The notes below the pieces were generated by a model. That model was given only the letters and a program-made list of their open reading frames with translations, was not told where the DNA came from and did not search any database. Source: Pseudacidovorax sp. (GTDB lineage: Bacteria > Pseudomonadota > Gammaproteobacteria > Burkholderiales > Burkholderiaceae_C). From it: 64,000 bases of DNA. The DNA lies in NCBI RefSeq assembly GCF_017991995.1, contig NZ_JAGOPN010000006.1, positions 1 to 64,000 on the forward strand. The letters run 5' to 3'. Made by a program: the position numbers and the translations under genes. Of this stretch, positions 10,527 through 37,336 are shown piece by piece; positions within the stretch are counted from its first letter, which is position 1; the number at the start of each line of letters is the position of its first letter.

Positions 10527-10603
10527 CTGGGTGCGAGGCGCAGACGGGCGCCACGCAGGAGTCGCGAAGGTCGGGCCGCCTCGCGGATTGCTCCTGGAGA
10601 TCC
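10527..10603 (+). ncRNA. Structured nhaA leader, candidate Li+ riboswitch (nhaA-I type)
   Basis: Two helices are visible. TGCG-A-GGCGC (10532-10541) pairs with GCGCC-A-CGCA (10548-10557). CAGGAG-T-CGCG (10556-10566) pairs with CGCG (10582-10585) and CTCCTG (10591-10596). The two helices share 10556-10557, so they compete or stack. The right arm of the second helix runs into the GGAG ribosome binding site (10596-10599) of nhaA, so folding could hide it. The nhaA-I RNA motif is a known lithium-sensing class upstream of nhaA; location and general architecture fit, but I could not align it to the consensus. Confidence 0.6.
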
Positions 10604-12707: not shown

Positions 12708-14057
<1,350 letters not shown>

Positions 14058-14118: not shown

Positions 14119-14211
14119 GACAGGCGCAGCCGCGCCATCGCGCCGTGTCACCCCGCGCAAGAAATTCTTTTATCTCCACCACTTGCGCGTTTTCCTCGGC
14201 GGGCGGCCGCG

Positions 14212-14227
14212 TGGCATGGATATTGGA
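14212..14227 (+). promoter_or_regulatory. Candidate sigma-54 (-24/-12) promoter
   Basis: TGGCAT, five bases, then TTGGA matches TGGCAC-N5-TTGCW except for the C of the -12 GC, which is G here. It lies 36 bp before the MBL gene and faces it, downstream of the enhancer-like palindromes and divergent from a sigma-54 activator gene. Confidence 0.6.
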
Positions 14228-14262: not shown

Positions 14263-15159
14263 ATGCCATCCGCTGCCACCCTGCATATCGAGCATTTCTT
14301 CGACCCGGACACCTGGACGCTGAGCTATCTGGTGCTCGATCCCGCCACGTACCAATGTGCCCTGGTGGACAGCGTGCTCGGCTACGACCCCAAATCGGGC
14401 CGCACCTCCCACGCGCCCGCCGACCGCCTCATCGCCCGGGTTCGCGAGCTGGGCGCCACGGTGGCCTGGATCCTGGAAACGCATGTGCATGCCGACCACC
14501 TCACGGCCGCGCCCTAACTGCAGCAGCAACTGGGCGGGCGCATCGGCATCGGCAACCGCATCACGCGTGTGCAGCAGGTCTTCGGCGCACTGTTCAACGC
14601 GGGCGAAGGCTTCGCCAGCGACGGCCGGCAGTTCGACCACCTGTTCGAGGATGGCGAGGCCTTCCAGGTCGGCAAGTTGCAGGTGGAGGCCATGCACACG
14701 CCGGGCCACACGCCCGCCTGCATGACCTACGTCGTGCGTTCCGGCCCCGGCGAGGACGCCGACATCGCGGCCTTCGTGGGCGACACGCTGTTCATGCCCG
14801 ACTACGGCACGGCCCGCTGCGACTTTCCGGGCGGGGATGCGCACACGCTGTTCCGCTCCATCCGCCGGGTGCTGGCCCTGCCGCCACGCACGCGGCTGTA
14901 CATGTGCCACGACTACCAGCCCGGCGGCCGCCCGCTGCAGTGGGTGAGCACGGTGGCCGAGCAGCGCGCGCACAACGTCCATGTGCACGACGGCATCGAC
15001 GAGGACCACTTCGTCGCCATGCGCCGGGCGCGGGACGCGACGCTGGCCATGCCGGTGCTGATCCTGCCCTCGGTGCAGGTCAACATGCGCGCCGGCCACC
15101 TGCCCGAGCCGGAGGCCGATGGCCGGCGCTACCTGAAGATCCCGGTGGATGCCCTCTGA
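14263..15159 (+). pseudogene. MBL-fold hydrolase (persulfide dioxygenase-like), nonsense codon 85
   Basis: The full frame (298 codons plus stop) reads as an MBL-fold protein of the Blh/ETHE1-like group that oxidises glutathione persulfide. It has the metal motif THVHADHL (near codons 78-85), MHTPGHT and GDTLF. An in-frame TAA at 14515-14517 interrupts it directly after THVHADHLTAAP. Homologues usually have Tyr (TAC) there, so a single C-to-A change explains it, and the frame continues unbroken to 15159. An AAGGAGA site precedes ATG 14263. A sequencing error, a recent pseudogene, or stop-codon readthrough are all possible. Confidence 0.85.
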
Positions 15160-15196
15160 GCACCACCGCCCGGACGCCCCCACCAGGAGACACGTC

Positions 15197-16863
15197 ATGG
15201 ACATCAGGACCCTGAACGCCGACATCGCCGTCGGCCCGCAGATCACGCCCGCCGACGTCGCCGCGCTGGCCGCCGCGGGCTACCGCGCGATCCTCTGCAA
15301 CCGCCCGAACGGCGAAGGTGCCGACCAGCCCGGCTTCGCAGAGATCGCCCAGGCCGCGCAGGCTTGCGGCCTGCCGGTGCATCACCTGCCGGTCGAATCG
15401 GGCACGGTGCGCGACGAGGACGCCCAGGCCTTCGGCGTGCTGCTGGCCAGTCTGCCCAAGCCGGTGTTCGCCTACTGCCGAACGGGCACGCGCTCGGCCA
15501 CGCTTTGGGCGCTGTCGCAGGCCACGAAGCTGCCGCTGCCCGAGATCCTGCAGCGCGCCCGCTCGGCCGGCTACGACCTGCAGGCCGTGGTCCGCCGCGT
15601 GGCCAACGGCGGCCAGACGCCCGGCGGTGCAATCGATGCCACGCACGACATCGTCATCGTGGGCGGCGGCGCCGCCGGCGCGGCCGTGGCGGCCAGCCTG
15701 CTTGCGCGCCGCCGCGACCTGGACATCGCCATCATCGACCCGGCCGAGGTGCACTACTACCAGCCCGGCTGGACCATGGTGGGCGCCGGCGTGTTCAAGC
15801 CCGAGGTGACGGCGCGCACCATGGCCTCGGTGCTGCCGCGCGGCGTGCGCTGGCTCAAGGGTGCCGTGGCCGCCTTCGAGTCCGAGCGCGACGCCGTCGT
15901 GCTCGACGGCTGCCGCGTCGTGCGCTACCGGCAGCTGGTGGTCTGCCCAGGGCTCAAGCTCGACTGGCAGGCCATTCCCGGCCTGCCCGAGACGCTGGGC
16001 CGCCATGGCGTGACCTCCAACTACCGCTACGACCTGGCGCCCTACACCTGGGAGCTGGTGCAGCGGCTGCGCGGCGGCAAGGCCGTCTTCACCCAGCCGC
16101 CCATGCCCATCAAGTGCGCGGGCGCGCCGCAGAAGGCGATGTACCTGTCGGCCGACCACTGGCGGCGCCAAGGCGTGCTGGACCAGGTCGACATCGATTT
16201 CTGCAATGCAGGCGCCGTGCTCTTCGGCGTGGCCGACTATGTGCCCGCGCTGATGGAATACATCGCGCCTACGGCGTGCACCTGAACTTCGGCCACCAGC
16301 TGGTGGCGGTGGACGGGCCGGCCCGGCGGGCCACCTTCATCCACACGCACACGGACGGTCGGAAGGAAGCCGTGCTGAAGGACTTCGACCTGCTGCATGT
16401 GGTGCCGCCACAGACCGCCCCCGACTTCGTGCGCGTGAGCCCGCTGGCCGATGCGGCCGGCTGGGTGGACGTGGACCCGGCCACGCTGCGCCACAAGCGC
16501 CATGCCAACGTCTTCGCGCTGGGCGACTGTGCCAACACCACCAACGCCAAGACTGCTGCCGCAACGCGCAAGCAGGCGCCGGTGGTGGCGCACAACCTGC
16601 TGGCTGCGCTGGGCCACGCCAAGGGCGAGGCGCGCTACGACGGCTACGGCTCCTGTCCGCTCACTGTGGAGCGCGGCAAGATCGTGCTGGCCGAATTCGT
16701 CTACGGCGGCAAGGTGGCGCCGACCTTTCCGAACTGGCTGATCGACGGTACGCGTCCATCGACGCTGGCCTGGTACCTGAAGGACCGGGTACTGCCGCCG
16801 ATGTACTGGTCCGGCATGCTCAAGGGCCGCGAATGGCTGGCCGAGCCGGCCCTGACCGAGTGA
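15197..16863 (+). pseudogene. Sulfurtransferase (DUF442)-SQR-like FAD oxidoreductase fusion, frameshifted
   Basis: The first about 110 residues are a phosphatase/rhodanese-like domain of the TIGR01244/DUF442 type with active-site loop YCRTGTRSA. They are fused to an NAD(P)/FAD oxidoreductase resembling sulfide:quinone reductase, with GGGAAGAAVAA at the FAD site and VFALGDCANTTNAKTA near the end. Such fusions are known beside Blh-type hydrolases. Near 16264-16272 the expected EYIARYGVHLNFGH reads EYIAPTACT and stops at 16285. One missing base (GCGCGCTAC to GCGCCTAC) restores the reading to 16863. RBS AGGAGA precedes ATG 15197. As read, the enzyme loses about 190 C-terminal residues. Confidence 0.88.
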
Positions 16864-16873
16864 GGGTGGCGCC

Positions 16874-17695
16874 ATGACTGCCCTGCTCATCAGCCTGTCG
16901 ATGGGCGCCGCCGTGGGCCTGGTGCTGGCCCTCAGCGGCGCGGGAGGCGGCATCCTGGCGGTGCCGCTGTTGGTCTTCGGCCTGCACCTGAGCATGGTGC
17001 AGGCGGCGCCGGTGGGCCTGATCGCGGTGGGGCTGGCCTCGGCCCTGGGGGCGGTGCTGGCGCTGCGCGAGGGCAAGGTGCGCTACCGCGCCGCGGCCAT
17101 CATCGGCGTGACGGGCATGGCCTTCGCGCCGTTGGGCGTGATGCTGGCGCACCGGCTGCCCAATGCGCCGCTGATGGTGGGCTTCTCGCTGGTGCTGGCC
17201 TGGGTGGCGGTGCGCAGCATCCGGCAGTCGCTGGCGCCCGTGCCGGCCGGGCCTTCCGCGCCGTCTGCGCTGCAGGTGTGCCGGCTCGATCCGGTGCGTG
17301 GGCAGCTGCGGCTGGTGTCGCCCTGCGTTCTCGCGCTGGGCGCCACCGGCGCGCTCTCGGGCCTGCTGAGCGGGCTGCTGGGCGTGGGTGGCGGCTTCGT
17401 CATCGTGCCGATGCTGGGCGCCTTCTCCAATGTACCGATCCGCGGCATCGTCGCCACCTCGCTGGCCGTGATCGCACTGGTGTCGGTGGGCGGCGTGGCC
17501 GGCGCCGCCTCGCAGGGCGCCGTCGCCTGGGACGTGGCCCTGCCCTTCGCCGCCGGCGCCGTGCTGGCCTTGCTGGCCGGCCGCCGCCTGGGCGCGCGGC
17601 TGGCGGGGGCGCGACTGCAGCAGGCCTTCGGCGCAACGGCCGCCGCGGTCGCGGTGCTGGTGTTGCTGCGCGGGCTGGGGGTGTTGGCGCTGTAG
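16874..17695 (+). CDS. TauE/SafE-family sulfite/anion exporter
   Basis: This 273-residue membrane protein has about eight hydrophobic segments in two homologous halves, with the family glycine motifs SGAGGGILAVPLLVFGL (residues 17-33) and SGLLGVGGGFVIVPML (near 160-175). TauE/SafE permeases commonly export sulfite, thiosulfate or sulfoacetate. It starts 10 bp after the SQR-like gene with a GAGGGTGG site, so it would remove sulfite produced by persulfide oxidation. Its reading frame is intact, unlike the two genes before it. Confidence 0.88.
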   Translation: MTALLISLSMGAAVGLVLALSGAGGGILAVPLLVFGLHLSMVQAAPVGLIAVGLASALGAVLALREGKVRYRAAAIIGVTGMAFAPLGVMLAHRLPNAPLMVGFSLVLAWVAVRSIRQSLAPVPAGPSAPSALQVCRLDPVRGQLRLVSPCVLALGATGALSGLLSGLLGVGGGFVIVPMLGAFSNVPIRGIVATSLAVIALVSVGGVAGAASQGAVAWDVALPFAAGAVLALLAGRRLGARLAGARLQQAFGATAAAVAVLVLLRGLGVLAL

Positions 17696-17867
17696 GGAGG
17701 CCAGGAATCGCACCGCGGCAGCCGGCTGGCGCTGGGGTAGCCGGTGCGTGACTCTCAGCAGCGGCATGGACACCTATGGCGTTGCTGCGACGGTCGTCGC
17801 TGCGGCGCTCCGTCGAATGGATGAAGCCTTCGCGCCAAGCAGTCTCCGGCCGTGTGAGACTGGCACG

Positions 17868-18326
17868 ATGAATCGCGCCTTGCTGCTTCTCGTACCCCTG
17901 ACGGCGCTGGTCCTCACGGCGCCACCCGTGCACGCCCAAAAGGCGGTCTACAAATGCGTCACTCAGGGCAAAGTCCAATACAGCCACACGCCATGCGTCG
18001 GCGCCATCGAGATCGATGCCACCCCCACCCAGGGCGCCGACCGCTGGAGCGGCCAAAGCCGCAAGGGCCGGGACGTCCAGCGACTGGAATTCAACGAGCA
18101 GATGGGCCGGGCTGTGCGCCCCTTGACCGGCATGGACGATGCCCAATGGAAGACCGCCACCCACCGCCAGGCGCTCAGCCCTTCGGCCCGGCAGGAATGC
18201 GATCGACTGGACCCGATGCTGGCCGCGCAGAGAAGCCGGACGGACGCTGCGACAGTCGAAGAACGTGGCCGTGCCGATGTCCGCCTATGGCAGTTGAGAC
18301 GCAGGTTCGCCGATCTCGACTGCTGA
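17868..18326 (+). CDS. Secreted DUF4124-domain protein
   Basis: The 152-residue product starts with a signal peptide (MNRALLLLVPLTALVLT...VHAQ, cleavage near residue 23). The mature N-terminus VYKCVTQGKVQYSHTPC has the paired cysteines of the DUF4124 domain, a small periplasmic domain of unknown role. The remainder is charged and probably helical. The open frame extends upstream to 17748, but the signal peptide fixes the start at 17868. Its function is unknown, and it is separated by 172 bp from the permease gene. Confidence 0.75.
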   Translation: MNRALLLLVPLTALVLTAPPVHAQKAVYKCVTQGKVQYSHTPCVGAIEIDATPTQGADRWSGQSRKGRDVQRLEFNEQMGRAVRPLTGMDDAQWKTATHRQALSPSARQECDRLDPMLAAQRSRTDAATVEERGRADVRLWQLRRRFADLDC

Positions 18327-18554: not shown

Positions 18555-18954
18555 CGGTGGGAAGACGTGAACCTGCGCGCCGGCACGATGCGCGTGCACC
18601 GGGCGCGTGCTGACCGAGGACAGGGCCCGCACCAAGACCACACCGCGAGCGGCTGGTGGAGCTCAACCACCGCGCTACATCGATGAGCGGTCGCAACGCC
18701 GCGCTTGGCTGCAAGCCCGGCTGGCGGCAGGTGTGCGCTATCGCCCGCCCAAGGAATGCCGCGACACCAGCGTCACCATCGCACTGATGGCAGGCGCGAA
18801 TCCTGTCTGGGTGGCCATGCAGCATGGGCACTCTGTGCCGGTGATGATGCGCGACTACGCCAAGTGGATTCCGTCAGCCGACCGGGGTGCGAACCTGGCC
18901 GCGTTGAATGCGACGCTGGCCCGTTCGACGGAGGGCGCGGAGCCCCCGGATTGA
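18555..18954 (+). pseudogene. Decayed phage-type integrase (tyrosine recombinase) C-terminus
   Basis: Pieces of an integrase are visible in different frames: WEDVNLRAGTMRVHRAR from 18558, TEDRARTKTTPR after 18607, ERLVELNHRA near 18650, and from about 18690 to the stop a longer run with YRPPKECRDTSVTIALMAGANPVWVAMQHGHS and DYAKWIP. The last corresponds to box II and the nucleophile region of tyrosine recombinases, but the usual RHT is changed to RDT and at least two frameshifts occur. No N-terminal domain is present upstream. It ends about 95 bp from the 3' end of tRNA-Ser, a usual integration target. Confidence 0.75.
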
Positions 18955-19001
18955 TCGATTTAGGACAAATTTGGGACTAGCGGCAGCAGCCGGCCAGCCA
19001 G

Positions 19002-19034
19002 AAATGAAAAAAGCCGTTGAAGATCAACGGCTTT
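19002..19034 (-). terminator. Intrinsic terminator of the tRNA-Ser/lysC unit
   Basis: An 11-bp stem, AAAGCCGTTGA (19010-19020) with TCAACGGCTTT (19024-19034), has an AGA loop and is followed on the minus strand by a T-run (TTTTTTC). It lies 15 bp downstream of the tRNA 3' end. Confidence 0.88.
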
Positions 19035-19048
19035 CTATGCGAAGGGCT

Positions 19049-19141
19049 TGGCGGAAACGGAGGGATTCGAACCCTCGATGAGGCTCTACACCCCATACTC
19101 CCTTAGCAGGGGAGCACCTTCGGCCACTCGGTCACGTTTCC
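19049..19141 (-). tRNA. tRNA-Ser (anticodon GCU)
   Basis: Read on the minus strand, the 93-base sequence begins GGAAACG and ends CGTTTCCGCCA, closing a 7-bp acceptor stem with an encoded CCA. The anticodon loop CTGCTAA gives GCU, decoding AGC/AGU serine codons. It has a long variable arm (GTATGGGGTGTAGAGCCTC region) and T-loop GGTTCGAATCC, as expected for tRNA-Ser. It lies 71 bp after lysC on the same strand. Confidence 0.97.
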
Positions 19142-37159: not shown

Positions 37160-37165
37160 CCGCCG

Positions 37166-37290
37166 GTGCGCGACTGGCGATAGGCGCGGCCCCTCCTTGC
37201 GAGGCGAGCCGGCGCTGACGTGGATGACCACTGGGAAGCGCACCGCCCGCGGCTGGAGCCGGGGCGATCAGCCGTTCGCCTGGGCAGCCC
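37166..37290 (+). ncRNA. ZTP/ZMP riboswitch (pfl motif) upstream of glyA
   Basis: The leader contains the 5' conserved block GCGCGACTGGCGATAGG (37168-37183) and the 3' conserved block CCGTTCGCCTGGGCA (37272-37286), which are the hallmark parts of the pfl motif. A variable linker with its own hairpins lies between them. The riboswitch senses ZTP/ZMP, a sign of 10-formyl-THF shortage, and commonly controls purine and one-carbon genes including glyA. The distance to the AAGGA site of glyA (about 40 bases) allows control of either translation or termination. Recognition is by motif, not by a covariance search. Confidence 0.85.
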
Positions 37291-37336
37291 TTGCCGGATC
37301 CGACGCCGCAAGGTCCCTCTTCTTCGAAGGACTGCC

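Follow-up and report, generated by a model that had tools for sequence, protein, structure and literature searches.

A FisR-type sulfide-oxidation operon in a draft genome of Pseudacidovorax sp. (GCF_017991995.1) has probably been inactivated very recently in its lineage by two independent point lesions in adjacent genes, and the loss may be confined to the strain level. The operon lies in a window of 64,000 nucleotides (NZ_JAGOPN010000006.1, forward strand), the whole stretch of DNA that was analysed, and the genome to which it belongs (G000) is assembled in 38 contigs. Judged from its predicted genes, it is a sulfide-oxidation operon of the FisR/PDO/SQR/TauE type whose SQR carries a fused sulfurtransferase domain. 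A regulator gene (12708–14057, minus strand) is followed, all on the plus strand, by a broken persulfide dioxygenase (PDO) gene (14263–15159), a broken sulfurtransferase-SQR fusion gene (15197–16863) and an open gene for a TauE/SafE-type permease (16874–17695). Two features expected of a FisR-type system were found: an activator with an N-terminal sensor domain, divergent from the operon (PF08448 and PF00158), and PDO, SQR and TauE genes together, though the PDO and SQR genes are broken.

An earlier reading made from the DNA alone (the sequence-only reading) had described the first broken gene as an MBL hydrolase interrupted at codon 85 by an in-frame TAA. The stop is there in the translated frame: the 298 codons up to the natural stop (MPSAATLHI at the start, THVHADHLTAAP up to the interruption and LQQQLGGRIG after it) hold a single in-frame TAA at 14515–14517 (plus strand), shortly 3′ of the HxHxDH motif. 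The family can be named more closely: frame reading, a family search and the PDB match of the open copy in the close relative G012 point to a persulfide dioxygenase of the ETHE1/Blh type with an MBL fold. The likeness to these enzymes (PDB 4efz, 4ysk, 4chl; NCBIfam NF040641) is that of the open G012 copy, which aligned across nearly its whole length with 4efz (E = 8.3e-138) and 4ysk and matched human ETHE1 (4chl) more weakly (E = 2.6e-22); the window copy, in contrast, ends at codon 85. Compared with Blh (NF040641), the open copy has no sulfurtransferase domain on its chain and scores 385.6 against a cut-off of 625. His74, His76, Asp78, His79, His149, Asp174 and His216 are kept in all 72 relatives, and we take the HxHxDH motif and the later His/Asp/His residues to form a metal site with a catalytic role. 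In the window these two sets are not in one chain, the cut at codon 85 falling between them; the codon-85 column holds one common residue in 72 of the 73 aligned relatives.

The second broken gene encodes a TIGR01244 sulfurtransferase-SQR fusion, identified from its frames, domain searches and the PDB match of the open G012 copy. Read from 15197, the frame stops at a premature TGA (16283–16285) after 362 amino acids, and the remaining protein is open to 16863 in another frame. The loss of one base that the sequence-only reading had placed near 16264–16272 is borne out by alignment with G012 and a second close relative, G004: the window lacks one base at about 16266 (frameshift site and stop, 16264–16285, plus strand), and neither gene has any other indel. 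The open G012 fusion is 555 amino acids long and combines a sulfurtransferase domain of the TIGR01244 type, matched as PF04273 in the window piece, with an SQR domain. Its residues 3–137 match PDB 2f46, and human SQOR is the best PDB match of residues 150–545 (311 bits). Compared with human-type SQOR (PDB 6mp5, 6oi5), which residues 150–545 resemble, the fusion has an additional N-terminal TIGR01244/PF04273 domain, and the window copy is severed between two invariant cysteines. These, Cys307 and Cys487 of the SQR part, occur in 80 of 80 relatives and are presumably the redox pair; with the frameshift between them, the FAD-binding part and both cysteines are not in one chain in the window SQR. 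Against the type III selenoprotein SQR family (NF049943) the open G012 fusion scored 188.6, below the curated cut-off of 525. Four distant SQR relatives at 41% identity (L214, L217, L218 and L221, from G119, G221, G203 and G111) contain an in-frame TGA, one of them also a TAG, and are possibly selenocysteine SQRs as in NF049943.

The flanking regulator and permease had been described as intact, and both frames are indeed open. The regulator is a FisR-like sigma-54 activator with PAS_4 (PF08448), Sigma54_activat (PF00158) and Fis-type HTH (PF02954, below cut-off) domains, and no stop occurs across the 429 codons compared. A stop in one relative's regulator (L116) was rejected as a lesion, being the natural end of the protein (residue 446 of 449). 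Cys58, Cys69 and Cys76 are kept in 18 of the 18 relatives that have the regulator, at a spacing that we take to be the same as in Cupriavidus FisR, reportedly the subject of Li et al. 2017. The permease matches PF01925 at E = 1.6e-39. Upstream of the PDO gene, a weak -24/-12-like element of sigma-54 type was tentatively read by eye (14212–14227, plus strand), and both its GG pairs are kept in the alignment with G012, G004 and G009; a stricter sigma-54 motif scan upstream of the PDO gene found a motif in just 1 of 63 relatives. At position 14209, between regulator and operon and just upstream of this element, the window lacks one base that G012 and G004 have.

Of at least 563 named fusion relatives, the 80 best were compared for gene order. 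In 63 of them the PDO gene immediately precedes the fusion, on the same strand; the flanking sequence examined contains the regulator in 18 of the 80 and a TauE match in 17. Whole or partial fusion matches occur in 116 plasmid records, 56 of them covering at least 80% of the query. Downstream of the operon, a tRNA-Ser(gct) gene (19049–19141, minus strand) adjoins a 115-amino-acid frame (region 18607–19141); judged by eye, this frame looks like the last part of a tyrosine integrase, and it has no Pfam match at E ≤ 0.01. Between the end of the fusion and lysC (named by eye) the window has about 2.4 kb, G012 1.7 kb and G004 about 44.6 kb (G004:C10 108033–152672); the 44.6-kb stretch in G004 is possibly an integrated element. 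Elsewhere in the window, an nhaA-I riboswitch (10529–10583) and a ZMP/ZTP riboswitch (37160–37292) score above their Rfam gathering cut-offs.

Both lesions are private to the window genome in every set compared. The sequence-only reading had proposed examining the same positions in close relatives, and neither the TAA nor the base loss is present there: both genes are open in G012, G004 and G009, at 97%, 96% and 76% DNA identity to the window, respectively. Within the genus, in a collection holding one genome per species, 4 of 15 genomes carry the fusion (the window genome, G004, G009 and G012), and the window copy alone is split; the MBL family gave 16 matches in 11 of the 15, and again no copy but that of the window contains a stop. 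In the 80 best-matching named relatives, out of at least 563, a set picked by match quality and so biased toward intact copies, the fusion is whole and stop-free in 80 of 80, and MBL genes of at least 45% identity are stop-free in 72 of 72; Pseudorhodoferax, Limnohabitans and Variovorax are among the best fusion matches. A family-wide sample gave a fusion match at E ≤ 1e-40 in 54 of 299 genomes and, leaving out the window genome, 13 genomes with an essentially whole fusion, each in one piece and with no stop. Because just 4 of the 15 genus genomes carry it, the fusion is dispensable in the genus. In the 11 that lack it, the flanking genes (tag-like glycosylase and lysC, by eye) are on different contigs in 10 and more than 1 Mb apart in one.

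The rest of the genome was searched for comparable lesions with a frame test of contigs C22, which carries the operon, and C20 against G012. The test was anchored at the 3′ end, used the last 300 nt before a lesion and left out lesions falling within the first 60 nt or the final 7%. To be counted, a gene had to align over at least 90% of its length with at least 85% identity and to end no more than 30 nt from the stop, which held for 169 of 198 called genes on C22 and 160 of 212 on C20. Four genes were flagged on C22 and one on C20: the PDO gene, the fusion and three genes outside the operon (C22 201492–202692, C22 235388–237071 and C20 295733–296276) whose lesions lie 12%, 13% or 89% of the way along the called ORF. 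In the gene at C22 201492–202692, which was compared with G012 at 88% identity, a TAG that may be premature lies at 89% of the length. When the reference was G004, the test flagged 2 of 83 genes, again the PDO gene and the fusion. When the window genome served as the reference instead, it flagged 1 of 170 and 0 of 161 G012 genes and 1 of 78 G004 genes. The PDO and fusion lesions are the only clear mid-gene ones in the 329 genes (about 620 kb of C22 and C20) aligned with G012, a count that excludes unflagged candidates such as C22 100232–102668 and 154217–156332, whose substitution pattern is not codon-like. A generally error-rich assembly is rejected on the strength of these tests on C22 and C20. 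Earlier versions of the test differed. The first (G012 to window) flagged 18 of 165 genes, most of which resembled wrong start sites (for example 23712, cysS by eye); the second picked out 4 of 170 genes on C22 and 3 of 161 on C20; the third kept 1 of 169 and 1 of 160, losing the PDO gene owing to a non-coding 5′ extension of the called ORF. The final criterion was tightened after the miss of the PDO gene by an earlier version was known.

The sequence-only reading had called both damaged frames otherwise perfectly conserved, which overstates the case: the changes are mostly synonymous, but some replacements are present. On the window branch the PDO gene has N1:S11, with one replacement besides the stop, and TauE has N1:S14 and looks to be under constraint. 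The regulator (N14:S13 on the window branch, N9:S15 on the G012 branch) is open yet not clearly constrained. For the fusion the counts are N11:S17 along the window branch and N4:S22 along the G012 branch (Fisher p = 0.07). Over the called ORF it has N13:S18, ranking 11 of 68 genes by N/S on the window branch (p = 0.09 versus the G012 branch and p = 0.06 versus all other genes); N/S over the whole branch is itself higher for the window (0.36) than for G012 (0.29). A contrast of the fusion with PDO and TauE together gave p = 0.0095, but was picked after the data had been seen. Two of the 11 fusion replacements in the window (residues 38 and 229) fall in columns that are the same in all 80 relatives, compared with none of 12 assigned to G012 or G004. 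Open PDO copies also change at conserved sites: at residue 178 G004 alone deviates, 72 of 73 relatives agreeing, and at residue 40 the window and G004 have Gly where 70 relatives have Asp, which weakens one argument for decay. By these counts the decay is young. The signal of relaxed constraint on the operon genes is weak, and that the fusion was first to lose constraint is a guess.

The genome carries a second PDO gene, full-length and open, at G000:C20:66170–67039. Its neighbours are an ArsR-type, BigR-like regulator and two sulfur-transport-like (YeeE/YedE-like) genes, so that the locus matches the BigR persulfide-sensing locus in grouping an ArsR-type regulator and a PDO with two sulfur-transport-like genes. 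Compared with that locus, it lies outside the window and two of its members score below cut-offs: the regulator, which among NCBIfam models matches BigR (NF040642) best, at 96.6 against the curated equivalog cut-off of 155, and one transporter gene at 21.8 against the Pfam cut-off of 27. A search of the window genome with the open fusion for a second SQR like it, at E ≤ 10, returned only fragments of 37 and 63 residues at 40–41% identity; the fusion was the sole query, so the result applies to SQRs related to it. In G012, a third PDO homologue (G012:C15:227566–228447) is 71% identical to the operon copy of that genome.

The sequence-only reading left two options, recent inactivation or two nearby assembly errors, and the evidence favours the former. 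Local assembly or base-calling errors, with both genes intact in the organism, would fit a 38-contig draft, two single-base lesions and the mostly synonymous change of the surrounding codons (PDO N1:S11, fusion N11:S17). They would, however, have to have struck twice in neighbouring genes of an operon absent from 11 of 15 genus genomes, at sites outside any homopolymer longer than three, with none of the other aligned genes (329 in all) showing a clear lesion in mid-gene. That the two lesions are the sole clear mid-gene pair in these genes and are neighbours argues for real inactivation, and we consider the error explanation unlikely. The chance that two random genes of 329 adjoin is about 2/329 (0.6%), a figure that overstates the case, as the finding was chosen for closeness; adjacency is thus less telling than it appears. 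It is extremely improbable that the genes function despite their lesions, through stop-codon readthrough, frameshifting or restarts that yield split active proteins. The frames on both sides of the lesions are conserved and the downstream fragments have possible GTG starts at 14569 and 16276, but the stop and the shift are not shared by relatives, each break parts invariant residues, and no X XXY YYZ slippery heptamer occurs in 16150–16285, which speaks against a programmed frameshift in the fusion.

Inactivation also has a narrower form, in which the lesions are real but arose in culture or are a strain polymorphism unfixed in the species. The very slight decay fits this form, as does a comparison built on one genome per species, and it has a modest chance of being correct; the fusion N:S counts and the two replaced invariant columns hint weakly at a longer relaxation instead. 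A distinctly doubtful proposal is that two-tier sulfur control (FisR-SQR plus BigR) has given way to control by BigR alone, with the FisR-like activator and TauE (N1:S14) kept for another use, such as sulfite export or the control of other genes.

The best reading, drawn from the lesions and from analogy with described systems, is that primary sulfide oxidation was recently lost and a persulfide backup retained. The two lesions would leave a PDO fragment and a fusion fragment that both fail to work, one lesion perhaps having relaxed selection on the other gene. Oxidation of sulfide to persulfide by the fusion, the SQR-dependent step, would be lost, and the BigR-like/PDO/YeeE-YedE-like locus would, judging by homology, still handle persulfide. 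The earlier suggestion of a loss of selection on sulfide detoxification reaches too far: the SQR step is hit, and the search with the open fusion gave no relative of this SQR elsewhere in the genome beyond short fragments, but the open second PDO is expected to cover the persulfide step. As a pseudogene event this is ordinary, a gene loss of known kind caught early. If the lesions are confirmed, the genome would offer a naturally broken primary sulfide-oxidation operon alongside an open persulfide backup, and close relatives with an open operon would allow a direct comparison of the SQR contribution.

The closest described counterpart is in Acinetobacter, where FisR-PDO1-SQR-TauE is the primary system and BigR-PDO2-YeeE/YedE the backup, and deletion of fisR raised the BigR locus about tenfold (PMC7315123). 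The A. baumannii operon (A1S_1707-1711) shares with the window a divergent sigma-54 activator followed by PDO, SQR and TauE genes. It differs in that the window PDO and SQR genes are broken and the SQR is fused to a TIGR01244 domain. According to that paper, A. baumannii FisR is without the Cupriavidus cysteines, whereas the window regulator has the conserved Cys triad, and the next gene downstream encodes homoserine dehydrogenase, whereas the corresponding frame in the window (17748–18326) matches DUF4124. A. baumannii resembles the window genome in having a second locus elsewhere that combines a BigR-type regulator, a PDO and YeeE/YedE (PMC7315123).
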